A stretch of DNA of 64,000 bases, from assembly GCA_025361565.1 (NCBI GenBank), contig JANYKN010000159.1, positions 1 to 64,000 on the forward strand, in the 5' to 3' direction. Source of the stretch: Bacteroidota bacterium. Lineage in GTDB: Bacteria > Bacteroidota > Bacteroidia > Bacteroidales > NBLH01. The notes below the pieces were generated by a model, which was given only the letters and a program-made list of their open reading frames with translations, ran no database searches and was not told the origin of the DNA. Of the stretch, positions 15,799 to 63,407 are shown piece by piece. The translations under genes and the position numbers were made by a program. Position 1 is the first letter of the stretch. Each line of letters starts with the position of its first letter.

Positions 15799-16044
15799 TT
15801 AATATTTTTATCAATGATTAAATATGTATTAATTTGAATTGCTTTGTTGATTGATATAAAAGGATTTAAATATTTGAAGTATTTCTGAATTATGGTCGAT
15901 TATTTATGTTCGGTTGAAATCACATAATATTATTTAATTATAGTTTAAATTGTATTTGTTTATTTGTGTATTTATATTGTAGAAATTAATCTATCAATTA
16001 TTTTAGCTGGATTGAAATATTAAAATTATTAACCTATTCACATT

Positions 16045-16479
16045 ATGGAAGTTAAAATTGTAAATAATTCTAATAACCCTTTGCCGCAATATGAAACCAT
16101 TCATTCGTCAGGATTGGATTTACGGGCTTTTATAAGTGAAGATATTGTTCTCAAATCTTTAGAAAGATATTTAGTTCCCACCGGAGTATTTATTTCTATA
16201 CCTGAAGGTTATGAAGCACAAGTTCGACCAAGAAGTGGATTGGCTTTTAAACATGGAATTACTGTACTTAATTCTCCAGGAACTATTGATGCTGATTATC
16301 GGGGCGAATTAAAAGTTATTCTTGTTAATTTATCAAAAGATGATTTTATTATAAAATCCGGTGAAAGAATTTGTCAATTGGTTTTTTCAAAAGTTGAACA
16401 GATTCATTGGAACCAAGTTTCTGTTTTAGATGAAACTTTACGAGGTGTTGGTGGTTTTGGCCATACAGGTTTCGTGTAA
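16045..16479 (+). CDS. dut: dUTP diphosphatase
   Basis: A 144-residue trimeric dUTPase that hydrolyses dUTP to dUMP, protecting DNA from uracil. All five motifs are present: [43 protein letters not shown] and the glycine-rich C-terminal [10 protein letters not shown]. It is followed by the TPR, DUF4292 and M23-like genes, an order I associate with Bacteroidota genomes. Confidence 0.97.
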
Positions 16480-16561
16480 TAGTTTTCACAATAATTGTTT
16501 TTTACAATTCGTTTTTTGGCAGTGAATGTTCACTATATTCTTGTTTTATATCAATTATTAT

Positions 16562-18268
16562 ATGCGAATTAGTTTTGCGATATTAACCATTATCATTTTG
16601 TCCTCTTCTTGTAAGCCTCGTCAGGTTGAGGTTTCAAATCTTATTGGGAATGATTCTGTAAAGTTCACCTATATTTATAGTGAAGCCCTAAAAAATAGAA
16701 TGCTTGGTCAAACTACTCTTGCTTGCCAGCAATTTGAAGAATGTTTAGTTATGAATCCGCTCAGCACTGCCAGCGCTTATCAACTTGCTCAGCTTGCTAT
16801 CGAAGCTGGAGATTTGGATAAAGCTAAAAATTATTCTGAAATTTGTATCACTAATAAACCGGAGAATGAATGGTTTTTATTGCAACGTGCTGATATTGCT
16901 AAAAGATTAAATGAAAAAGTAGTTTATTCAAAAGTTTATACAAAATTGGCTGAGCTTTTCCCGGATAATCTTAATTATTTGTATGAATATTCTATCATTC
17001 AATATGAAGATAAACAGTATAATGATGCTTTGGTTTCCTTGCAAAAATTGGAGGAGGAAATCGGTATTAATGAAAACATTTCTTTTTTGCGAAACAATAT
17101 TTATTTCTCTTTAAAAAGGATGGATGCGATACAGCTTGAATTGCTTCGATTATCGAAAGCTTTTCCTGATAGTACTCGTTATTCAGATATGTTGGCTGAT
17201 TTTTATTTAAGTTATAATCAGCCTGAAAAAGCTTTAAATGTTTATCAAGCAGTACTTGATATAGAGAATGAAAATGGTTTTGCAAACCTTGGAGTAGCAT
17301 GGATTAACGGAAGTCTAGGCAAATTTAAACAAGGATTTCCATATTTAATAAAAGGGATCAAAAGCCCATTGGTTAAATATGAAAGCAAGAAAAAAGTTGT
17401 TGAATTATATTTAAATTCAAAAGCGAGTCAAATATCTGATGATTCAATCGAAGCTATTTATTTAGCATTGCTGGATACTGATAATCCTGAAACTGATGTA
17501 TTAAACCGATATATTTCGTATTTGTTTGATAGGAAAGATTATGCACAAGCTGAAAAATTTGCTCAAAGTTCTATCACTGTTAATCCAGATAATTTTACTG
17601 CATGGGATGTTATGTTGAATATTTTAATGATTCAAGGTAGAAACGAAAAGTTAAAAGAATATTCGTTAAAAGCATTGGAATATTTTCCAAATCATGCTTT
17701 GGTTTTCTTTTTTTCGGGCTATTCGCAATTTGCTTTGAAACAATATAACGAAGCCATTAATTACTTTGAAATGGGACTTGATTATGTTGGTGACAATGAA
17801 AACTTGGACAAACAGTTTCTCATTTATCTTGGCGAAAGTTATCATTATATAGCCAAACACAAACAGTCAGATAGCTATTTTGATAAATATTTGAAAATTG
17901 ATTCTTCAAACGCTTTTGTATTGAATAATTATGCTTTTTATCTTGTTTCAAGAAACACAAATTTGGATAAGGCGCTTGCATTATCGTATAAATCGATTGA
18001 AATAGAACCATTTAACAGTACATTTTTAGATACTTATGCCTGGATTTTATTCAATTTAAATGATGTGGAAAAAGCTAAAAATTATATTGAAAGAGCTTAT
18101 AAATATGGAGGAAACTCTAATTCGTTAATTGTTGAACATTTCGGTGATATTTTATTTAAGAAGAATAAGATCGATGAAGCTCTTGAGCGTTGGAAAGAAG
18201 CATATGCATTGAATAGAAGTAATTCTAAACTGTTGGAAAAGATAAATAAAATTGAATTAGAGAATTGA
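16562..18268 (+). CDS. TPR-repeat lipoprotein
   Basis: With the start at 16562 the product is 568 residues and begins with a lipoprotein signal (MRISFAILTIIILSSSC, lipid-accepting Cys at 17). An earlier in-frame start at 16526 would bury this signal, so it is rejected. The rest is a long series of tetratricopeptide repeats from about residue 30 to the end (for example ALVFFFSGYSQFALKQYNEA, NAFVLNNYAFYL), a protein-protein scaffold. It lies between dut and the DUF4292 lipoprotein gene and may take part in cell-envelope assembly; the exact role is unknown. Confidence 0.85.
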   Translation: MRISFAILTIIILSSSCKPRQVEVSNLIGNDSVKFTYIYSEALKNRMLGQTTLACQQFEECLVMNPLSTASAYQLAQLAIEAGDLDKAKNYSEICITNKPENEWFLLQRADIAKRLNEKVVYSKVYTKLAELFPDNLNYLYEYSIIQYEDKQYNDALVSLQKLEEEIGINENISFLRNNIYFSLKRMDAIQLELLRLSKAFPDSTRYSDMLADFYLSYNQPEKALNVYQAVLDIENENGFANLGVAWINGSLGKFKQGFPYLIKGIKSPLVKYESKKKVVELYLNSKASQISDDSIEAIYLALLDTDNPETDVLNRYISYLFDRKDYAQAEKFAQSSITVNPDNFTAWDVMLNILMIQGRNEKLKEYSLKALEYFPNHALVFFFSGYSQFALKQYNEAINYFEMGLDYVGDNENLDKQFLIYLGESYHYIAKHKQSDSYFDKYLKIDSSNAFVLNNYAFYLVSRNTNLDKALALSYKSIEIEPFNSTFLDTYAWILFNLNDVEKAKNYIERAYKYGGNSNSLIVEHFGDILFKKNKIDEALERWKEAYALNRSNSKLLEKINKIELEN

Positions 18269-34473: not shown

Positions 34474-35075
34474 TTTAATTACAACCACGTTAAGTTATTG
34501 ATATACAGTCAAATAAATACATGTTTAATGAGGTTTTTGAAATGATGAATTTCTAAAAAAAAACTCAAACCTTACTTCATTACGAGTAAAGCGAAGTAAT
34601 CCCAAGCCATTCACTCTGAATCTAATTCATTTATAAAGCCTGTTTTAATTGTATATAGCGACTGCTTCGCTCGGCTCGCAGTGACGTTTGATGCTTAAGC
34701 TTTTATACTTATATATTTTTTCAATAAACTAATATCGTGAAATAATTTAATTCTATGCTTATAGATTTTAATAAATAACAATTTACCAATTTTAAAGTAT
34801 GATTTATAATTTTTAAGGTTTTCAATTACTGTTTTTAATTTTCAAAATACCGATTACAATTTTATAAAAATATAATACTTCTATTTTAGGTAATTTGCAT
34901 GATATTTGTTATTTTTATATTTTGTAAAGTACAGAAAATCAAAAATATATGAGGCTTATTGAATTTAAATAAAGGTGTACAAAATGTATAATTTAAATAA
35001 ATAGAAATTACAGTTTATTGGGTTTACATTTTTATATGGTTTTTTGATTATCAGTTATATAAAATATATCATGTG
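34474..35075. other. Intergenic region rnpA/ctp with a repeat element
   Basis: About 600 AT-rich bases between two plus-strand genes. It contains the inverted-repeat element at 34574-34690 and no convincing gene. The second half (34700-35070) is very AT-rich and should hold the promoter of the protease gene. Confidence 0.5.
34574..34690. repeat. Dispersed inverted-repeat element, copy A
   Basis: Imperfect inverted arms around AGCGAAG/CTTCGCT cores: left arm CATTACGAGTAAAGCGAAG, right arm CTTCGCTCGGCTCGCAGTG. The reverse complement of the right arm matches the left arm at about 19 of 28 positions. A related element lies at 44704-44809. The GC content is much higher than that of the surroundings. 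Confidence 0.7.
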
Positions 35076-36740
35076 ATGAAAAAGTTGAAATTTTTGAAGA
35101 GTTGGCGTTCCATCGTTATTGCGGTTACAATAGGAGTATTTTCTACACTTTTTATAGCCTTTGATGATACAGATGATTTTGAGCTCGCCAAAAATATGGA
35201 CATCTACCATACGCTAATCCGTGAATTAAGATTATACTATGTGGATGATATTGAAATTTCTAAAGTGTTTAAAACAAGTATTGACGACATGCTTGCTACT
35301 TTAGATCCCTATACAGTTTATTATCCCGAATCGGAAATAGAGGATTTTAAATTTATGACAACCGGGCAATATGGAGGAATTGGCGCTCTTATTCGTACAG
35401 AAAAAGATAAAATAATTATTGAAGAAGTATATGAGAATTATCCTGCTGCTAAAGCCGGCTTAAAGGTTGGTGATATCATAAAAAAAGTTGGCGATCACGA
35501 AGCACGCACTGCCAATTACGATGATGTTAGTATTTTAATGAAAGGGCTTCCAGATACTGAAATAGAAATTACTGTTTTAAGGCCAACTGACAACAAGTTG
35601 TATGTAAAAAAATTAATTCGTGAAAAAATTACCGTTGAAAATGTTCCATTTTATGGCATGCTCAACGATAATACCGGTTATATTTATCTTACAGGGTTTA
35701 CACAAAATGCTTATAACGAAGTGAAGAATGCACTAATAAAGTTGAAGGAGCAGAACGCAAACCGAATTGTTCTGGATATTAGAAGTAACCCTGGCGGATT
35801 ATTGATTGAAGCTGTTAATATTGTAAGCTTATTCGTTGAAAAAGGTACTCCGATTGTTAGCATGAAAGGTAAAATTAAAAACTCAAACCATAATTTTGTT
35901 ACAACTATTGATCCTGTTGATACTCAGATTCCTGTTTGTGTTTTGGTAAATCGGAATTCAGCGTCAGCTTCTGAAATAGTTTCTGGTGCAATGCAAGATC
36001 TGGATCGTGGGGTTATCGTTGGCGAACGTACTTATGGAAAAGGTTTGGTACAGGAAACCCGCGATTTGAGTTACAATGCAAAACTAAAAGTAACTACAGC
36101 AAAATATTATATTCCGAGCGGAAGATGTATACAAGCTTTAGATTATACTCATCGTAATCCTGATGGGAGTGTTGGGTATATACCGGATTCTCTTATTTCT
36201 GAGTTTAAAACAAAAGCAGGAAGAAAGGTATACAATGGTGGAGGTGTTAGTCCAGACGTCAAAATTGACGAATCATCCATAAGTTCTATTTCTCAATATC
36301 TTTTTTCGAACATGATTGTGTTTAATTATGCTACGATTTATGCTTCAAAACACGATTCTATTGCAAAGCCCAACACATTTACGTTATCTGATCAGGATTA
36401 CACTCAATTCATTGATTATGTTGTAGCTTTAAAAATTGAGTATAAATCCGAAACTCAAAAAGTTCTTGAAGAATTGGAAGAAACTGCAAAGAAGGAAAAA
36501 TATTATAAAAAGGCACAAACAGAAATTGATGGTTTAAAAAATGTCTTAAAACATGAGGTTAAAGACGATTTACTCTACTTTAAGGACGAAGTGAAGGATT
36601 TGTTGGAATCTGAAATTGTTAAGCGTTATTACTATCGCAAAGGGGCTATTTTAAAAAGTATTTCTGAAAATGTAAGTATAAAGAAAGCTATCGAAATTAT
36701 GAACGATCAAAATAAATATAACTCCCTGCTAAAGCCATAA
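35076..36740 (+). CDS. S41-family C-terminal processing protease
   Basis: A 554-residue exported protease of the CtpA/Tsp family. An N-terminal membrane anchor or signal (IVIAVTIGVFSTLFIAF) is followed by a PDZ domain (GGIGALIRTEKD to VGDIIKKVG, about residues 105-175) and the S41 core with the catalytic Ser in NRNSASASEIVSG and Lys in GERTYGKGLVQE. A C-terminal helical extension of about 130 residues follows. Such proteases trim C-termini of envelope proteins. The ATG at 35076 is used rather than the preceding GTG. A terminator follows. Confidence 0.94.
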   Translation: MKKLKFLKSWRSIVIAVTIGVFSTLFIAFDDTDDFELAKNMDIYHTLIRELRLYYVDDIEISKVFKTSIDDMLATLDPYTVYYPESEIEDFKFMTTGQYGGIGALIRTEKDKIIIEEVYENYPAAKAGLKVGDIIKKVGDHEARTANYDDVSILMKGLPDTEIEITVLRPTDNKLYVKKLIREKITVENVPFYGMLNDNTGYIYLTGFTQNAYNEVKNALIKLKEQNANRIVLDIRSNPGGLLIEAVNIVSLFVEKGTPIVSMKGKIKNSNHNFVTTIDPVDTQIPVCVLVNRNSASASEIVSGAMQDLDRGVIVGERTYGKGLVQETRDLSYNAKLKVTTAKYYIPSGRCIQALDYTHRNPDGSVGYIPDSLISEFKTKAGRKVYNGGGVSPDVKIDESSISSISQYLFSNMIVFNYATIYASKHDSIAKPNTFTLSDQDYTQFIDYVVALKIEYKSETQKVLEELEETAKKEKYYKKAQTEIDGLKNVLKHEVKDDLLYFKDEVKDLLESEIVKRYYYRKGAILKSISENVSIKKAIEIMNDQNKYNSLLKP

Positions 36741-36818: not shown

Positions 36819-37766
36819 TTAGTACAAAGTATCTATTTGGATAATGAATTTCACCGCATTTACAGGAATGGTATCTCGAAACTGAGAATAATTGAGGTCA
36901 TTTTTTATTAAAAACTTATAATATTCCTGTTTAAATTTGGCATTTAATAAGTTTGAAATAAGCTTTTTATAACTCGAATTATCCATTTCGGCCTCTTTGA
37001 ATCCCAAAATAGCCACTCCATTGTTGTCTGTTAAAGTCAAGTAACAGTTATACTTTATTTTAGTTGACGGAGTTCCTTCAAGTCTGTTAACTTTCAATTT
37101 TACCAATAGTTCCCATTCTTCATATGCACCAGAGGGTGTATGCATAATTTTTGTCGTGTCTTGAGCTATCGCTACATTTTTAGCAAGGTTACCTTGGATA
37201 ATAGTATCATATGGCATTACTTGATATGTAGAATGTTTTACTGGCCCCTGGTTCGCTATATAAATAATCCAAACTAAAAATAATACCACAATTGCGGCAG
37301 TAGTTATCGTTTTTGAATAGATTCCCATTTTCACCTGTTTGTCAATCAAAGAAAGTTCATCTTCAAGCACTTTTATGCGAGCCGTTAAATCATTGCTGCC
37401 TGCCGATGATATTTTCAAAAATGAGATATTTCGCGAAATAATGGATTTTAATTTGTCATAGTTTTCTTTTGAAAACCTTTTTTTAGGCTTGCGCCAAAAA
37501 ATTAAAATAATTCCAAATGTGTAAAGCGCTAATATCAATCTAATTGCCGATGTAATTGTTTTTCCTGACGAGGGTTTCGGAATATCATGCAATGCATTTA
37601 TATTTTCTTTGATAATTTCTATTCCTTGATCAAATGAATCTTTATCGGCTCCCAGACCATCTGTGTTTTTTACTCTATCGAAAAGAACATGCCCACAATA
37701 ATCACAAACAAAATCGTGTGGCTCCATATTAGCAGCACATTTAGGACAACTTGAATTTTGATTCAT
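36819..37766 (-). CDS. Zinc-ribbon, coiled-coil membrane protein of unknown function
   Basis: A 315-residue protein starting with a zinc ribbon (CPKCAANMEPHDFVCDYCGH, residues 7-26), then a hydrophobic segment (about 68-87), a predicted coiled coil (about 110-145), a transmembrane helix (about 148-170) and a roughly 140-residue extracytoplasmic domain. That end contains a KIKYNCYLTLTDNNGVAILGF-like beta segment. I do not recognise the family. The layout resembles membrane-anchored zinc-ribbon sensors or scaffolds. No partner is obvious. Confidence 0.7.
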   Translation of the reverse strand: MNQNSSCPKCAANMEPHDFVCDYCGHVLFDRVKNTDGLGADKDSFDQGIEIIKENINALHDIPKPSSGKTITSAIRLILALYTFGIILIFWRKPKKRFSKENYDKLKSIISRNISFLKISSAGSNDLTARIKVLEDELSLIDKQVKMGIYSKTITTAAIVVLFLVWIIYIANQGPVKHSTYQVMPYDTIIQGNLAKNVAIAQDTTKIMHTPSGAYEEWELLVKLKVNRLEGTPSTKIKYNCYLTLTDNNGVAILGFKEAEMDNSSYKKLISNLLNAKFKQEYYKFLIKNDLNYSQFRDTIPVNAVKFIIQIDTLY

Positions 37767-38517
37767 TTTGGATTGATTAAGGTTTTATTAATTTGAATAA
37801 ACTATAAATTACGCATTACAGTCTCAAACAAATTTAATCAATTATGATGATTCAATCAATATGGAGATGCTTTAACTTTTAACATCAAATTCATATTTGA
37901 ATATTTTAATTGTGTCAAAATATATGGTTTGATTTATGCAATGCAAATATTGTTACAGAAATATCTGTTTGTTTTAAGAAATTTATGATTTATATATCAA
38001 TTTAGCAATAAAATATTATTTGGAAAAGTATAATTAGTTATATATTAATAAAATATATAAGGTTTATTAAATGTTAAGATGAAATAAAATTATTCTTAAT
38101 TTGCTTAATGATTAATTTTAATTTATCCATATTTATTATTTTATTTTGGGAATAAACATGGTGATAGTTTTTATTTTTCATGTTTTACCATATCTTATAT
38201 TTTAAATATTATATGGTGATTAAATATGTAAACATCAAATAATTAATTAGATATGTGATTTTGTGCTTTATGTGTGTTTACCGATTTTTCATCAAAATTT
38301 AATGGATTTTGTTGCTATTACAATAAAGAATACATATAAATTATAAACAATAATTTACATTAATAGAATTATTTAGACATTTAGATTTTCATGCTTTACT
38401 TAAATAAACAGAAATTTACTAAAAAAATAGTTTTTTTACTTAAAGTATTTGTTTTATATAAAAATTTTTACTTAAATTTGTCTTTAATTAAAAATTGAGT
38501 TAAAACAGATTAACTAA
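37767..38517. other. Long AT-rich divergent intergenic region
   Basis: 751 bases between divergent genes, extremely AT-rich. The only element I can support is a promoter-like pair for the plus-strand gene (TTTG 38448-38451, TAAATTTG 38473-38480). No conserved RNA fold or gene was recognised. An upstream activator region or small RNA cannot be excluded. Confidence 0.45.
38448..38480 (+). promoter_or_regulatory. Bacteroidota-type promoter for the exported-protein/siaC1 unit
   Basis: TTTG at 38448-38451 and TAAATTTG at 38473-38480, separated by 21 bases, matching the -33 / -7 consensus of Bacteroidota. The predicted transcript would start about 30 bases before the ATG at 38518. Confidence 0.6.
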
Positions 38518-38952
38518 ATGAAGTCAAACTGGTTAATTATATTACTGATAATAGTTGCGGGAAGTACAATTAACCTCGGAAGTACGCTTAGATATGGTAA
38601 TCCATCAATTGAATTTTTTCAAAATAATGAGTTTAGTGGAAAAAATGGAGATGTATTTGTTTATTCCATCAAACTGAGGTCAAATGAAAATTTATTGAAT
38701 TTTAAAGTTATTCCTAGTATCAAGGGAGAAAACATAGATTCAGAGTTTGACTATCTATTTGATGAAAATACGCATCAGGCCGTAGTAAATTATTTTTATG
38801 TATTGCCTGTTGGTGTTAATTCGGATCAAATTGTTTTAACCTTCACTTTAACCGATTCAAAAGAATCAAATGTGAAAACTAAAGTGATAAAAGTTTCAGA
38901 GAATTTGAATTTTGCAAAAGCTAAAATTAATGGATTAAGCAGAGAAATTTAA
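38518..38952 (+). CDS. Small exported protein of unknown function, upstream of siaC1
   Basis: A 144-residue protein with a signal peptide or N-terminal anchor (LIILLIIVAGSTI) and a beta-rich body of immunoglobulin-like look (KNGDVFVYSIKLRSNENLLNFKV, ending with DQIVLTFTLTDS). It has no cysteines and no known motif. Its stop is one base before the start of the first SiaC gene, so the two are very likely translated from one message. This suggests an envelope component linked to the SiaC signalling protein, though no function can be assigned. Confidence 0.65.
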   Translation: MKSNWLIILLIIVAGSTINLGSTLRYGNPSIEFFQNNEFSGKNGDVFVYSIKLRSNENLLNFKVIPSIKGENIDSEFDYLFDENTHQAVVNYFYVLPVGVNSDQIVLTFTLTDSKESNVKTKVIKVSENLNFAKAKINGLSREI

Positions 38953-38953
38953 T

Positions 38954-39343
38954 GTGTTGGAACGACTGATTATAAAAAAACGTGTAGATGCACCATATGT
39001 TCTTTTAGATTCTGAAGAAGGATATGGGGAAATTACCGGAAAATCTTATCCTCCGGATGTTTCAAGCTTTTACAATCCGATTATAGATTGGTTCGAAAAT
39101 TATAAAAGGAATAACAATACAGAATTTGAACTTAACATTAAATTGGATTACGTTAATACAGCTTCATTGAAATTATTAATGGATCTCATGTATAAAATGG
39201 AGGAAGCTGTGCTAGGAGGAAAAAATATTTTGGTAAAATGGTTTTATCCAGATGATGATGTTGAAATGATTGAAATAGGTCAGGAATTTGAAAGATTAGT
39301 AAAAATTGAATTCCTGCATATATGTTACGAAAAAGAATATTAA
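38954..39343 (+). CDS. SiaC-family (DUF1987) regulatory phosphoprotein, copy 1
   Basis: A 129-residue protein of the SiaC/DUF1987 family. In Pseudomonas, SiaC is phosphorylated by SiaB, dephosphorylated by the PP2C phosphatase SiaA, and in the unphosphorylated form activates the diguanylate cyclase SiaD. Family features are PYVLLDSEEGYGEITGKSYPPD and the phospho-loop LDYVNTASLK, in which Thr69 is the candidate site. The start is GTG at 38954, overlapping the gap after the exported protein. It is the most divergent of three tandem copies. No SiaB, SiaA or GGDEF protein is adjacent. Confidence 0.82.
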   Translation: MLERLIIKKRVDAPYVLLDSEEGYGEITGKSYPPDVSSFYNPIIDWFENYKRNNNTEFELNIKLDYVNTASLKLLMDLMYKMEEAVLGGKNILVKWFYPDDDVEMIEIGQEFERLVKIEFLHICYEKEY

Positions 39344-39451
39344 TATTACCAATGCTGCGGCAACATGTGACTGAAAACTGAAAATTCGTTTGGACTTGTA
39401 GGGGGTTATTAACAAATGTTCAATTTCTTTCCAATACTTTTGCAGCATAAC

Positions 39452-39478
39452 AAATCCCGGTCGTGTACCGGGATTTTT
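39452..39478 (+). terminator. Rho-independent terminator after siaC1
   Basis: Perfect 10-bp stem AAATCCCGGT / ACCGGGATTT with a 5-base loop, followed by TT. Located 109 bases after the siaC1 stop codon. Confidence 0.85.
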
Positions 39479-39675
39479 ATTTTTACCTAATTAGATTATA
39501 ATTGATTGTATGATTTTCATATAAGAATTGATAGCGCTAATAAAAAAGCTGATTTTTAAATTTCATACTTAACTTAATGGCTAAAATGAATTTTTGAAAT
39601 ACTTGTAATTATTGTGAAAATTGGCGGGGTATTTATTTTTGATGTCTAATTAAAAACTATCAATTTGGTATCACA

Positions 39676-39708
39676 TTTGTAAAACTAAATTTATTTTTCG
39701 TATTTTTG
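39676..39708 (+). promoter_or_regulatory. Bacteroidota-type promoter for siaC2
   Basis: TTTG (39676-39679) and TATTTTTG (39701-39708) separated by 21 bases, the same spacing as the promoter before the first unit. Confidence 0.6.
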
Positions 39709-39771
39709 ACAAGAATTATTTTAATTTAGTGGTTTCATGAGTATTAAAAGCTGCCCAAATTATTGAATAAC

Positions 39772-40152
39772 ATGAATTTGAAGAAATTAGAACTAAAAGC
39801 ACAAATTGATACTCCATACATATCGCTAGACCCACACAGCGGAATTTGCGATATTCTTGGTAAATCGTATCCCGAAGACATTTCTTCTTTTTATATGCAG
39901 GTAATAGACTGGTTTGAAGAATATAGTTTTGTTGGTGAAACCGATTTGACAATTAATATGAAATTGTCGTATTTCAATTCGGCATCGCAAAAAGTTTATA
40001 CTGAAATATTTGAAAAATTGATGGATAATCCGAACTTCAAGATTAACGTGAACTGGTACTATTCCACTGAAGATGATGAGATTCTTGAAAGCGGTAAAAT
40101 TTACGAAGCGCTGACCGGACTTAAATTTAATTTTATTGTCTATTCGCTTTGA
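39772..40152 (+). CDS. SiaC-family (DUF1987) regulatory phosphoprotein, copy 2
   Basis: A 126-residue SiaC-family protein starting at ATG 39772; a TTG three codons upstream is less likely. It shares with copy 3 the IDTPYxSLDPxxGIC start, KSYPED, the phospho-loop YFNSASQKVY (candidate Ser70 in place of the Thr of copy 1) and the end LTGLKFNFIVY. It has its own promoter and terminator. Confidence 0.85.
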   Translation: MNLKKLELKAQIDTPYISLDPHSGICDILGKSYPEDISSFYMQVIDWFEEYSFVGETDLTINMKLSYFNSASQKVYTEIFEKLMDNPNFKINVNWYYSTEDDEILESGKIYEALTGLKFNFIVYSL

Positions 40153-40232
40153 TAAATAAGTAATTTCGAGCCTAGAAATATTTTTAATATTTTTATTTAG
40201 CATACGTTTAATTATCACAAATTTAAACACTT

Positions 40233-40275
40233 TCCCTGCAAAATTATAAAACAATTTTGCGGGGATTTTTTTTTT
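40233..40275 (+). terminator. Rho-independent terminator after siaC2
   Basis: A 13-bp stem (40233-40245 / 40253-40265, one G-U pair) with a 7-base loop and a ten-base T run. Confidence 0.88.
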
Positions 40276-40349
40276 AATTAATTTATGTTAATTTTGAAAG
40301 AAATCTGTAAAATTTAGTCACAAAAAAGTGTATAAAATCTATAATTGAC

Positions 40350-40357
40350 TATTTTTG
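40350..40357 (+). promoter_or_regulatory. Putative -7 element for siaC3
   Basis: TATTTTTG, 63 bases before the ATG of siaC3. No good TTTG is seen at the -33 position, so support is weaker than for the other two copies. Confidence 0.4.
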
Positions 40358-40420
40358 TGCTTTCAAGTTTGCTTGATTAGTTCAAGCGCCTATTTCCTTT
40401 AATTTTATTTTAATTTGGAT

Positions 40421-40798
40421 ATGATTGTTTTATCGAAGATTGTAATTAAAGAACAAATTGACACACCTTATGTATCGCTCGATCCTGATACAGGGATTTG
40501 TGAAATATCCGGAAAATCTTATCCAGAAGATATTTACGAATTCTATACCCAGCTTGTTGATTGGTTTGAAGATTATGCTTTTAATGGTAAAAAAGATCTG
40601 GTAATCAATATGCGTTTGAGATATTTTAATTCTTCATCCCAGAAAATTTACAACGTAATATTTGAAAAATTGATTGATGTTCAAAATTTTAAAACTACAG
40701 TAAATTGGTTTTACGATAAAGAAGACGAAGAAATCCTCGAAAACGGTAAAATTTTCGAAGGTTTAACCGGGCTTAAATTTAACTACATTCCATACTAG
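40421..40798 (+). CDS. SiaC-family (DUF1987) regulatory phosphoprotein, copy 3
   Basis: A 125-residue SiaC-family protein, very similar to copy 2 (shared IDTPYVSLDP, GKSYPEDI, ENGKIFEGLTGLKFNYI). The phospho-loop is YFNSSSQKIY, with Ser71 as the candidate site. The high similarity to copy 2 points to a recent tandem duplication, with copy 1 older. It is followed by the convergent moaE gene. Confidence 0.85.
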   Translation: MIVLSKIVIKEQIDTPYVSLDPDTGICEISGKSYPEDIYEFYTQLVDWFEDYAFNGKKDLVINMRLRYFNSSSQKIYNVIFEKLIDVQNFKTTVNWFYDKEDEEILENGKIFEGLTGLKFNYIPY

Positions 40799-40956
40799 TA
40801 TTGGCTTTTATGGAATAACCAACTTATTTTCTACAATCCGCATTTCTAAAATTATTTTTCTTGGAAATTTAGTTTAGCTAAACTAAAAGTATTTGCCAGA
40901 ATTATTTCGTTTAAAGTATGGATATTTAAATTTTAAAAAAGCAAATTAATCCAATA

Positions 40957-41406
40957 TTATCTATCCGTTTTATTATCAGGCCAATTATGTGAATTATCTT
41001 CTAGAAATTCTTTTTTCCAAACCGGAAGCCGTTCTTTTATCAATTCAACAATTTCTTCTACTGCCTTAAAGGATTGTTTCCGATGGCCACATCCTACAAA
41101 TACCAACAATGAAATTTCACCGCAGTTGACTAAGCCAATGGAATGAAGGACGTGAATTTTTATTACATCGTTGTATTTTTCGGTAACAATACTTGTTATT
41201 TTTTGCATTTCGGCTTCAACCATTTCGGGATATGCAGAATATTCAATTCCGGTAACACACTGATTATTTATTATGTCGCTTCGAATTTGACCTAAAAAAA
41301 TGGAGTGTGCACCAATGTTTGATTCATTTGCTGCATTAATTACTTCACTGACCATCAATGTTGTAATTGAACCAGTTACCAAAAAATCTTTATTTATTGT
41401 GACCAT
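40957..41406 (-). CDS. moaE: Molybdopterin synthase catalytic subunit
   Basis: A 149-residue MoaE that transfers sulfur from MoaD to precursor Z to make molybdopterin. Typical segments are GAHSIFLGQIR, VTGIEYSAYPEMVEAEM, HVLHSIGLVNCGEISLLVFVGCGHR and the C-terminal LKERLPVWKKEF-like region (here LIKERLPVWKKEF) with the catalytic lysine. It lies downstream of moaD and mobA on the same strand. moaA, moaC and moeA are not in the window. Confidence 0.94.
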   Translation of the reverse strand: MVTINKDFLVTGSITTLMVSEVINAANESNIGAHSIFLGQIRSDIINNQCVTGIEYSAYPEMVEAEMQKITSIVTEKYNDVIKIHVLHSIGLVNCGEISLLVFVGCGHRKQSFKAVEEIVELIKERLPVWKKEFLEDNSHNWPDNKTDR

Positions 41407-60965: not shown

Positions 60966-63407
60966 TTAGATACGAATTCCCATGATAAGGATGTCGTCAA
61001 CCTGTCTGAAATTTTGGCCATCACTATATTGATGGTTAATCCAGTCCTGAAAAGCATGGTCAATAATTTGCTTTTGTTCTGTTAGTGGTAGCTTGTAGAT
61101 TTCGGAAAGTAGTTCCTTCAAGCGTTTAAAATAGAATTTGCGTCCTTCGGGCCCGCCGATCTGATCGCCATATCCATCAGAAAATAAATAGATTACATCG
61201 CCTTTTTCGAGTTGAATAATTTGATTTGTAAAATTCAATTCTTTGGGGTGTTTGCCAATCGGATTTTTTGTAGGCTTTAATTCAACAAGCCCTTTTAATT
61301 CTTCATCAGTTCCTTTGTTTGGGTCATTTTTAAAAATAACAAGAGGTCTGTTGGCTCCTGAAAATTGCATTTCGAGCGTATCGAGGTTTATAACGCAAAA
61401 AGCCATGTCAATACCGTCCCGGGTAAGCAATAAGTCGTCATAATTGCTAAAAGTGGTCTTTACTTCGTCCCTAAGTCTTTCCAAAACCTGGCTCGCTTTA
61501 TTAACTTCATTCCGGATTACGGTTTCGTTTAAAAGTGAAATGCCCAACATACTCACCAACGATCCTGGAACTCCATGCCCTGTTGCATCTGCTGCAGCTA
61601 TGGCAAAATATCTTTGATTGTCCCTTTCGATATATCGGTACCAGTAAAAATCGCCGCTTACTATCTCTTTGGGTTTGTAGTAGATAAAATGGCCATTGAA
61701 ATATTTGGTTAATTCAGTTTGCGAGGGTAAAATTACATTTTGAATCCTGCTTGCATAATTGATACTATCTGTGGTATTTTGATGAATTTTTTCGAGATAT
61801 CTTTTTTGCTGGCTTATTTCATCGTTTTTATTTTCTATTTCTCTTTTTTGATGAATCAATACTTCATTTGCACTTTTGAGGCTTTCGGATTGGGCAATAA
61901 TTTCTTCATTTTGTTGCTCAATTTCTGCTGTGCGCATTTTTACTCTGGTTTCGAGTTCGCGGTTAACTTTTTGCCGTAGTTGATCATTTTGTTTTAATTG
62001 TTCAATTAATTCAATCTGAGCAAGTTGTTTGGCTTTTTCGTTTAACCGGATCCGATATCCCAAACCCAACGAAAAAATAAGAAGCTCGGCAATAGTTGCT
62101 CCATTCATAAAATATTTTGGATCAAAATCGATCGGCTTTTTGGTAATGAGGAAATAAAGCGAAATAAAAGTCCCAATAGCAAGTACCAACGCGCCCGCAG
62201 CAAAAAACCATGATAATTTATGATTTTTTTGTATCAGATAATAAATAAATACGAAACCATAAATTAAACCCAACAAATTGAGGTAATTGCTGATGTTTAC
62301 CGAATATGGAATTTGAAAGGAAACCAATAAAACCAATAACAAAATGGCCGAAACAGTCAAATTAATTCCAATCACCCATTGATGGGCAATATCCCATTTG
62401 GGCATGTGTTTTTTTGTGTTGATGAAATAACGGATAAACTGGAAATAAGAGGCCGCTGCAACCGCTGTTGCTAAAATAAAAAAGTATGGATCAAGCTTAG
62501 GAAAATGAGGGATTGTATATTCAACAAATAATCCTCTTTCAACAACAAAATTAAGCGCAATTCCAATAATATAAAACGAATAATAAAGGTAAACCTTGTC
62601 GCGGCTATAGAAAAAGATAAAAAGATTATACAGGAACATCATCCACAATGCGCCTTGTAGCATTCCTTGCACCAAATTTCTTCTGTTCAGCTTATCGTTA
62701 AAATATTGTTTATCCAGAATTTTCAAATCAAATTGAGGAGCAAAACCCGAAATATTATTTATCCTGAAATAGAGCGTATATGATTTTCCGGGTTCTAATC
62801 GTATCATGAATTTGCTTCCAATTTCTCGCTTTATGTCTTTTTTGTCGCGCTCCACAAAATAGCCACTCAGTGCATGTTTTAAAAGTGAATCCTGATTATT
62901 GTAAAAATATAACTCTGCAAAATCGGAACTTCTTTTACCTCCAATTTGAAATATTACCTCTGTAATTTGATCAAAACCACTTTCAATCTTGATTTTGGAC
63001 CAATAAAAAGATTTTGTATTTAGTTTTATATCAGGATTATATAATTCAAATGAATTGCTTTTTTTTACTGAATCAATAGAATATTGACCTTTTGGATCTT
63101 CAAGGATTTGAAGGAATTGGTTTTGTGATTCATTGGGAAGAATAATTGAATCAACCCGTAGTATTTTTTGGTTTTGCGACCAACAAATATTTTGGAAAAT
63201 AAATGGGAAAAGCAGAATAAGAAGCAACGAATAGGTGCTTTTTAGATGAACCAACTTTATTTGTATAAACCTTGTATTCAAGTGCTTGTTTTTTACAAAT
63301 ATAAAATATTTAGCGGGATTATATTCACAAGAGTATGTCAGGAATCCAATTTTTTGACCAGTTATCGAATGTTTAATTTTTACTAATTTGGGTTTCAATT
63401 TTTCCAA
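60966..63407 (-). CDS. 7TMR-DISM receptor with SpoIIE (PP2C) phosphatase domain
   Basis: An 813-residue membrane signalling protein. After a signal or first helix near residues 55-77 comes a DISMED2-type extracellular domain (about 80-215), a 7TM block (about 240-450), a coiled coil (about 455-545) and a SpoIIE/PP2C serine phosphatase (about 565-813; KEIVSGDFYWY, AADATGHGVPGSLVSMLG, LFSDGYGDQIGG). The start at 63407 is a TTG and the true start may be later, just before the signal. This type of phosphatase acts on STAS or SiaC proteins in partner-switching systems; SiaC copies are 20 kb away. Confidence 0.9.
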   Translation of the reverse strand: MEKLKPKLVKIKHSITGQKIGFLTYSCEYNPAKYFIFVKNKHLNTRFIQIKLVHLKSTYSLLLILLFPFIFQNICWSQNQKILRVDSIILPNESQNQFLQILEDPKGQYSIDSVKKSNSFELYNPDIKLNTKSFYWSKIKIESGFDQITEVIFQIGGKRSSDFAELYFYNNQDSLLKHALSGYFVERDKKDIKREIGSKFMIRLEPGKSYTLYFRINNISGFAPQFDLKILDKQYFNDKLNRRNLVQGMLQGALWMMFLYNLFIFFYSRDKVYLYYSFYIIGIALNFVVERGLFVEYTIPHFPKLDPYFFILATAVAAASYFQFIRYFINTKKHMPKWDIAHQWVIGINLTVSAILLLVLLVSFQIPYSVNISNYLNLLGLIYGFVFIYYLIQKNHKLSWFFAAGALVLAIGTFISLYFLITKKPIDFDPKYFMNGATIAELLIFSLGLGYRIRLNEKAKQLAQIELIEQLKQNDQLRQKVNRELETRVKMRTAEIEQQNEEIIAQSESLKSANEVLIHQKREIENKNDEISQQKRYLEKIHQNTTDSINYASRIQNVILPSQTELTKYFNGHFIYYKPKEIVSGDFYWYRYIERDNQRYFAIAAADATGHGVPGSLVSMLGISLLNETVIRNEVNKASQVLERLRDEVKTTFSNYDDLLLTRDGIDMAFCVINLDTLEMQFSGANRPLVIFKNDPNKGTDEELKGLVELKPTKNPIGKHPKELNFTNQIIQLEKGDVIYLFSDGYGDQIGGPEGRKFYFKRLKELLSEIYKLPLTEQKQIIDHAFQDWINHQYSDGQNFRQVDDILIMGIRI

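Follow-up and report, generated by a model that had tools for sequence, protein, structure and literature searches.

Three neighbouring SiaC-type proteins of a Bacteroidales genome as probable adaptors in a dispersed SiaB/SiaC/SpoIIE phospho-switch network

The SpoIIAA/SpoIIAB/SpoIIE and RsbV/RsbW/RsbU systems are known partner switches. SiaC is known from Pseudomonas aeruginosa as the activator of the diguanylate cyclase SiaD (PMC8457831, PMC7647112). In the available parts of these two reports, P. aeruginosa SiaC (PaSiaC) is phosphorylated by SiaB and dephosphorylated by SiaA at T68, and the phosphorylated form cannot bind its target (PMC7647112, PMC8457831); T68 sits at the N-terminus of helix 2 (PMC7647112), and the phosphosite loop also belongs to the target-binding surface (PMC8457831). 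Here, we describe three neighbouring SiaC genes in a 64,000-nucleotide stretch (the window; contig JANYKN010000159.1, here C59) of a Bacteroidales genome assembly (GCA_025361565.1; 6.76 Mb in 199 contigs, 98% complete). We propose, with a probability of about 0.72, that these encode phospho-switch adaptors within a lineage-wide SiaB/SiaC/SpoIIE network whose output is not a diguanylate cyclase. Protein family, fold, phosphosite position, the inventory of the genome, gene order and the history of duplication are shown here and underlie this proposal. A literature search on SiaC/SiaB-type families in Bacteroidota, with subscription journals outside its scope, returned nothing relevant. The three genes are as follows.

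38954..39343, + strand: SiaC1; GTG start, loop NTAS, candidate phosphosite Thr69, Pfam SiaC 112 bits
39772..40152, + strand: SiaC2; likely ATG start, loop NSAS, candidate phosphosite Ser70, Pfam SiaC 106.2 bits
40421..40798, + strand: SiaC3; likely ATG start, loop NSSS, candidate phosphosite Ser71, Pfam SiaC 113.3 bits

All three proteins score far above the Pfam SiaC (PF09345) cut-off of 24.5 bits, and a Pfam scan at E 0.001 gives SiaC only, with no match to the classical STAS family (PF01740). SiaC1 is 39% identical to both SiaC2 and SiaC3, while SiaC2 and SiaC3 share 66% identity; for the two pairs tested (SiaC1-SiaC2 and SiaC2-SiaC3), the alignment scores lie far beyond every one of 200 shuffles per pair. 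The Pfam scores and the shuffle test thus bear out the three neighbouring paralogues named in an initial annotation of this DNA. The interval it assigned to them, 38518-40798, does hold all three genes, but its start belongs to a different gene, p144 (38518-38952). This was rejected as a fourth SiaC or array member, as it matches no Pfam family at E 0.001. The residue numbers Thr69, Ser70 and Ser71, given with the three loops, are right for the GTG and ATG starts; in-frame TTG alternatives in the list of open reading frames lie at 39763 for SiaC2 and 40415 for SiaC3. An antisense frame at 39826-40254 (- strand) overlies SiaC2 and was rejected as a gene, its openness being its only support.

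The NTAS loop of SiaC1 aligns with NTSS of PaSiaC, placing Thr69 on T68 with an Asn preceding the site residue in both proteins, and Thr69, Ser70 and Ser71 fall in a single alignment column. An AlphaFold2 model was made of one copy, SiaC1, from a 50-row alignment (predicted local distance difference test, pLDDT, 96; predicted template modelling score 0.88), and contains a helix at 69-87 (helix 2) with Thr69 at its start. A Foldseek search with this model at E <=0.001 gave eight matches, every one a PaSiaC chain. VIA-align scores were Z 20.6-21.1 against four PaSiaC entries (PDB 6kko, 6kkp, 6k4f and 7e6g; template modelling score 0.86-0.93, 26-29% identity) compared to <=8.6 against STAS proteins. 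All three proteins therefore combine a SiaC score above the Pfam cut-off with Ser or Thr at the T68 position, and SiaC1 also has the fold. Given the alignment to T68, and with Thr69 opening helix 69-87 just as T68 opens helix 2 in PaSiaC, the three loops coincide with the SiaC phosphosite, as had been supposed from the sequence. The locus differs from that of PaSiaC by the absence of adjacent siaA, siaB or siaD, by the presence of three copies and by Ser in place of Thr in two of these.

The likeness to the SpoIIAA/RsbV switches is more distant, extending to a STAS-like fold (Z 7.4-8.6 for the SiaC1 model) and a phosphatase family of the SpoIIE type. In contrast, switch and kinase of the SiaC system belong to different Pfam families, and nothing among our results points to a sigma factor as the SiaC target.

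The three genes had been said to stand alone, and this holds for the contig. A genome-wide profile search placed no SiaB (DUF6272) match on it, and the sole SpoIIE match in the window is about 20 kb distant from the SiaC genes; there is accordingly no single siaA-siaB-siaC-siaD operon.

60966..63407, - strand: 7TMR-DISM protein with a SpoIIE phosphatase domain

Kinase and phosphatase families are however encoded elsewhere in the genome. We found 23 SiaC and 41 SpoIIE matches (some SpoIIE matches being split) together with 26 DUF6272 domains, where DUF6272 is taken as the SiaB family from its position beside SiaC and not by comparison with P. aeruginosa SiaB. Of the two outcomes named at the outset as refutations, a genome devoid of SiaB-like kinases is thus not observed, and neither is a structural comparison placing the loops away from the phosphosite. 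The 26 domains are spread over about 17 genes: of the SiaB-type genes, nine contain a pair of DUF6272 domains (with an additional SiaC domain in two of the nine), seven have a single domain, and one further gene (C149:187) lies outside the nine double- and seven single-domain genes examined. When a SiaB-SiaB-SiaC fusion was aligned to stand-alone SiaBs and SiaCs, both families were put in the same columns, and the alignment was set aside. An example of a two-DUF6272 gene beside SiaC is found at 15988-17121 (contig coordinates) of locus L035; the genome has nine such loci. SiaB genes without a SiaC neighbour are present on contigs C90, C129 and C102 (a short match) and as C149:187, and are candidates for cognate kinases of the present locus.

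The same families track each other across 41 related genomes. SiaC and DUF6272 occur in an identical set of 20 genomes, an agreement expected by chance at 4e-12 (4e-10 with one genome per genus), and their numbers per genome are correlated (rho 0.88, rising to 0.91 when each genus is represented once). SpoIIE matches number 4-65 in the 20 genomes with SiaC vs 0-2 in the other 21. Classical STAS proteins number 1-4 in the SiaC genomes (three in our genome) vs 0-5 in the rest; the seven genomes lacking STAS are all without SiaC, but this difference is weak and the ranges overlap. STAS proteins as the targets of the SpoIIE phosphatases were rejected, their numbers (0-5) being far below those of SpoIIE. 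Genomes of this order have up to 23 SiaCs with equally many SiaB-type domains, numerous SpoIIE matches and a near absence of GGDEF domains, and this set is best described as a large, dispersed Ser/Thr partner-switching network. As in P. aeruginosa SiaABCD, SiaB- and SpoIIE-type families accompany SiaC; unlike that system, the components are dispersed and multiplied, some SiaB proteins have two domains or are fused as SiaB-SiaB-SiaC, and the SiaD output is missing.

No GGDEF match was found in the genome (98% complete, 199 contigs), and among the 41 genomes only one (G002) has any, namely two partial matches; a cyclic di-GMP output through a diguanylate cyclase was rejected on these grounds. 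Gene order instead offers other candidates. On contig C165, a SpoIIE gene, SiaB, SiaC and a TerB-ABC-ABC2_membrane protein are consecutive on one strand, and on C185 a SiaB-SiaC pair faces a protein of similar type with a TerB score slightly short of the cut-off. A set of named loci (the best 80 of 521, retrieved through SiaC) has a relative of the N-terminal part of the TerB-ABC protein within 1 kb of SiaC in 44 of 80 cases; it is absent in 33, and three have too little sequence. A TerB-ABC transporter-like protein, a candidate output, lies beside SiaB-SiaC in loci L029 and L030 and in these 44, in our genome as well as in other Bacteroidota. On C7 (L033 945-4553), the gene some 10 nt downstream of a SiaB-SiaB-SiaC fusion encodes pentapeptide repeats and an Ion_trans_2 channel domain. 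Both the TerB-ABC and the pentapeptide-Ion_trans_2 proteins are candidate outputs.

By analogy with P. aeruginosa, we propose that SiaB-type kinases encoded elsewhere would phosphorylate Thr69, Ser70 and Ser71 at the start of helix 2, and that SpoIIE-type phosphatases with sensor domains would strip the phosphate. Unphosphorylated SiaC would then bind its target, with SiaB acting as the off and the SpoIIE phosphatase as the on signal, as the available parts of PMC7647112 and PMC8457831 describe for SiaABC. Phosphorylation, partners, switch direction and output are all inferred. The pairing of each SiaC with kinase, phosphatase and target lends itself to direct assay in a matrix, the proteins being small and soluble.

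The genes and signals surrounding SiaC1-3 are listed below.

35073..36740, + strand: S41 peptidase with PDZ domain (Pfam Peptidase_S41 167.8 bits), the recurrent upstream neighbour of p144-SiaC
38448..38480, + strand: promoter-like site before p144-SiaC1, TTTG-N21-TAnnTTTG
38518..38952, + strand: p144, 144 residues, not a SiaC, ending 1 nt before SiaC1
39348..39486, + strand: conserved RNA element closing the p144-SiaC1 transcript, its last part an intrinsic terminator
39452-39476, + strand: intrinsic terminator behind SiaC1, within the RNA element
39676..39708, + strand: weak promoter-like site before SiaC2, found in about 3% of shuffles
40233..40265, + strand: intrinsic terminator behind SiaC2, a 13-pair stem followed by a T run

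The nearest named relatives of the locus come from uncultured Bacteroidales/Bacteroidetes assemblies. Within the genus set of seven genomes (G000, our own, to G006), the order hemD-rnpA-S41-p144-SiaC(s)-moaE-moaD-mobA is kept in five (G000, G001, G003, G005 and G006) as far as the contigs reach, with gene names other than S41 given by inspection. The two remaining genomes (G002 and G004, both incomplete) have no p144 match and no close SiaC orthologue. SiaC copies at the locus number three in G000, two in G005, at least two in G003 (which reaches a contig end) and one each in G001 and G006. In the tree, all nine SiaCs from the conserved locus group as a single clade (support 99/97), within which the SiaC2/3 type is a clade of its own (100/99) and SiaC2, SiaC3 and the G003 copy group together (100/100). 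This clade structure indicates that the SiaC2/3 type arose by duplication inside the genus, with the SiaC2/SiaC3 split occurring later.

p144 has an N-terminal hydrophobic segment that, by inspection, is a signal peptide or anchor. It is probably an Ig/FN3-like beta sandwich, according to a model of modest confidence (pLDDT 68.5) whose structure matches reach Z <=8.2, near the level of chance arrangement. The gene is separated from SiaC1 by 1 nt in the window and by 0 nt in G005, and one minus-strand gene (36819-37766) lies between S41 and p144 in the window. A four-row p144 alignment, searched against 247 genomes of the order, gave matches in 11: six are short and p144-like (G000, G001, G061, G071, G075 and G178), and the other five are longer, at about 280-306 residues. 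SiaC is directly downstream in five of the six short-p144 genomes, and S41 is upstream in five of six (in G075 the position lies outside the stretch examined); three Bacteroidales families besides that of the window are involved. The order recurs in a named rumen Bacteroidales locus (L135, 6632-9393), whose SiaC groups near the G061 protein in the tree, and L180, L182 and L183 again have S41, a small exported protein and SiaC in succession. In G016, a longer anchored protein, similar to p144 by eye but missed by profile searches, is found between S41 and SiaC. A different arrangement is seen at L111 3796-5839, L121 4524-6611 and L138 4961-7004, where another SiaC, near a SiaB-SiaC pair, lies directly upstream of a different S41 gene.

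SiaC1 thus appears to be the resident of an older S41 protease-p144-SiaC locus, probably co-transcribed with p144, while SiaC2 and SiaC3 are tandem duplicates from within the genus, separated by terminators. Several observations weigh against the proposal of three network adaptors with this history. No SiaB is linked to the locus, making any cognate kinase a guess, and the absence of GGDEF from an assembly 98% complete in 199 contigs is not absolute. The SiaC1-type clade is weakly supported (80/86). G001 and G006 keep p144 without a SiaC1-type copy, with only a SiaC2-type copy behind it, indicating that p144 is independent of SiaC1 itself; furthermore, G178 has S41-p144 without a SiaC directly behind.

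The RNA element, of about 138 nt, is present in all five genomes with the locus and follows SiaC1 immediately; in those lacking SiaC1 it follows p144. Its outer stem reads TGCTGC/GCAGCA, except for TTGTGG/CCACAA in G005; an invariant ACTTGTAGGGGGT and the terminator hairpin complete it. RNAalifold predicts 35 pairs, eight of them with kept double changes, three of the eight in the terminator. Compared with 500 shuffles of these five related sequences, the proportion of paired positions (87.9%) was reached by none, the eight double-change pairs by 8, the 11 double-change cells by none, and the covariation score of 0.234 was equalled once; the 13 further pair types, however, were reached by 326. 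Sliding the partners reduces every one of these measures. Single-sequence folding is mixed (z = -2.7, -0.5, -3.3, -4.5 and -1.4). Support from the five related sequences for a covarying structure is good but not final. A known Rfam family was rejected, as the five weak matches are nowhere near the gathering score, and no clear further copies were found among 100 sequences out of 268 loci plus the window, the five model sequences scoring 118-144 bits and the next 29 bits (E 0.035). The element may be a 3' untranslated region element or a 3'-derived small RNA.

Gene order alone points to a possible envelope function for the locus. SiaC1, the exported p144 and the S41 protease might form an envelope-control module, with an envelope process in place of cyclic di-GMP as the output of SiaC1, with the RNA acting as a small RNA or stability element and SiaC2/3 retargeted; we consider this specific arrangement unlikely. 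If true, the locus would represent a single branch of a Ser/Thr partner-switching network that has dozens of components and lacks a cyclic di-GMP output.

The initial annotation had read the unlinked genes and the Thr/Ser difference as a special, multi-input or graded switch, in which three SiaCs sharing an output would be served by different kinases, or by Thr/Ser-dependent rates, and their states summed. This is possible but quite improbable, and nothing specific supports it. It would agree with three copies of differing site residue at one locus, in a genome rich in candidate kinases and phosphatases. However, the copies are separated by terminators and long gaps (428 nt between SiaC1 and SiaC2, 268 nt between SiaC2 and SiaC3), and G001 and G006 keep a single SiaC at the locus. 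The genes are in tandem by position, yet a terminator lies behind SiaC1 and another behind SiaC2, which argues against one co-transcribed module; over both strands of 37700-41000, five terminator-like sites were found compared to 0.9 (standard deviation 1.2) in shuffles.

Neither supposed peculiarity is rare. Within our genome, SiaB lies within 1 kb of 13 of 23 SiaCs (two of the 13 fused as SiaB-SiaB-SiaC) and is absent there for 10, and SpoIIE lies within 1 kb of four. A sample of 135 SiaCs from 20 genomes, taken among the matches listed, gave 126 that could be classed after nine at sequence ends were set aside: SiaB is within 1 kb of 66 and absent there for 60, eight of the latter having SpoIIE within 1 kb. 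Of the named loci (the best 80 of 521, retrieved through SiaC), 71/80 have SiaB within 1 kb of a SiaC. The site residue is Thr in 97, Ser in 37 and Phe in one of the 135 sampled SiaCs (134/135 Ser or Thr), Thr in 16 and Ser in seven in our genome, and Thr in 78 and Ser in 14 among SiaCs of the named loci, with at least nine Thr/Ser exchanges on the tree. As unlinked SiaCs are common and exchange is frequent, a special multi-input mark is unsupported, and we regard the trio as an ordinary product of SiaC expansion.

Ser is commoner in unlinked (23/60) than in SiaB-linked SiaCs (10/66; p = 0.004 with Phe excluded, the rows being related). The excess is p = 0.045 in the sample minus our genome, and the named loci have Ser in 8/12 unlinked vs 3/74 linked SiaCs (p = 1e-6), again with related rows in both; a phylogenetic control offered four usable pairs, too few to reach 0.05. 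The presence of Thr- and Ser-bearing duplicates in one genome makes a ready system for the effect of the site residue on kinase choice.

That SiaC2 and SiaC3 act as decoys or buffers, occupying the SiaB or SpoIIE of another SiaC without a target of their own, is very unlikely. Unlinked copies are common and SiaC outnumbers SiaB domains in some genomes (16 vs 5 in G030, 11 vs 5 in G024), as a decoy role would allow, but the loop that forms part of the target-binding surface in Pseudomonas, according to the available parts of PMC8457831, is kept in SiaC1, SiaC2 and SiaC3. Least likely of all is that the copies are redundant or decaying and under no selection for function. Copy number at the locus does vary from one to three, and the incomplete G002 and G004 have no clear orthologue, but all three reading frames are intact, a SiaC2-type copy persists in 5/5 genomes with the locus, and the nonsynonymous divergence (dN) of 0.23 between SiaC2 and SiaC3 points to purifying selection, as a bound only since saturated synonymous divergence (dS) leaves dN/dS without value. 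Network adaptors remain our preferred reading of the three proteins.

Transcription of p144-SiaC1 may start from the listed promoter-like site, which follows the Bacteroidota-type promoter consensus TTTG-N21-TAnnTTTG. The element is found at -70/-69 before p144 in 4/4 genomes (G000, G001, G005 and G006), whereas shuffling any of these upstream sequences produces it in about 1% of cases, although across the window as a whole the pattern is no more frequent than chance (nine found vs 8.7 expected). The full SiaC2 element recurs in only one (G001) of four orthologous copies, at another distance, and SiaC3 is preceded by a -7-like element only, present in a quarter of shuffles. Repeated TTTACTTAAA-like words, kept in four genomes by eye, lie at 38370-38470 (+ strand) before p144 and are a possible operator.

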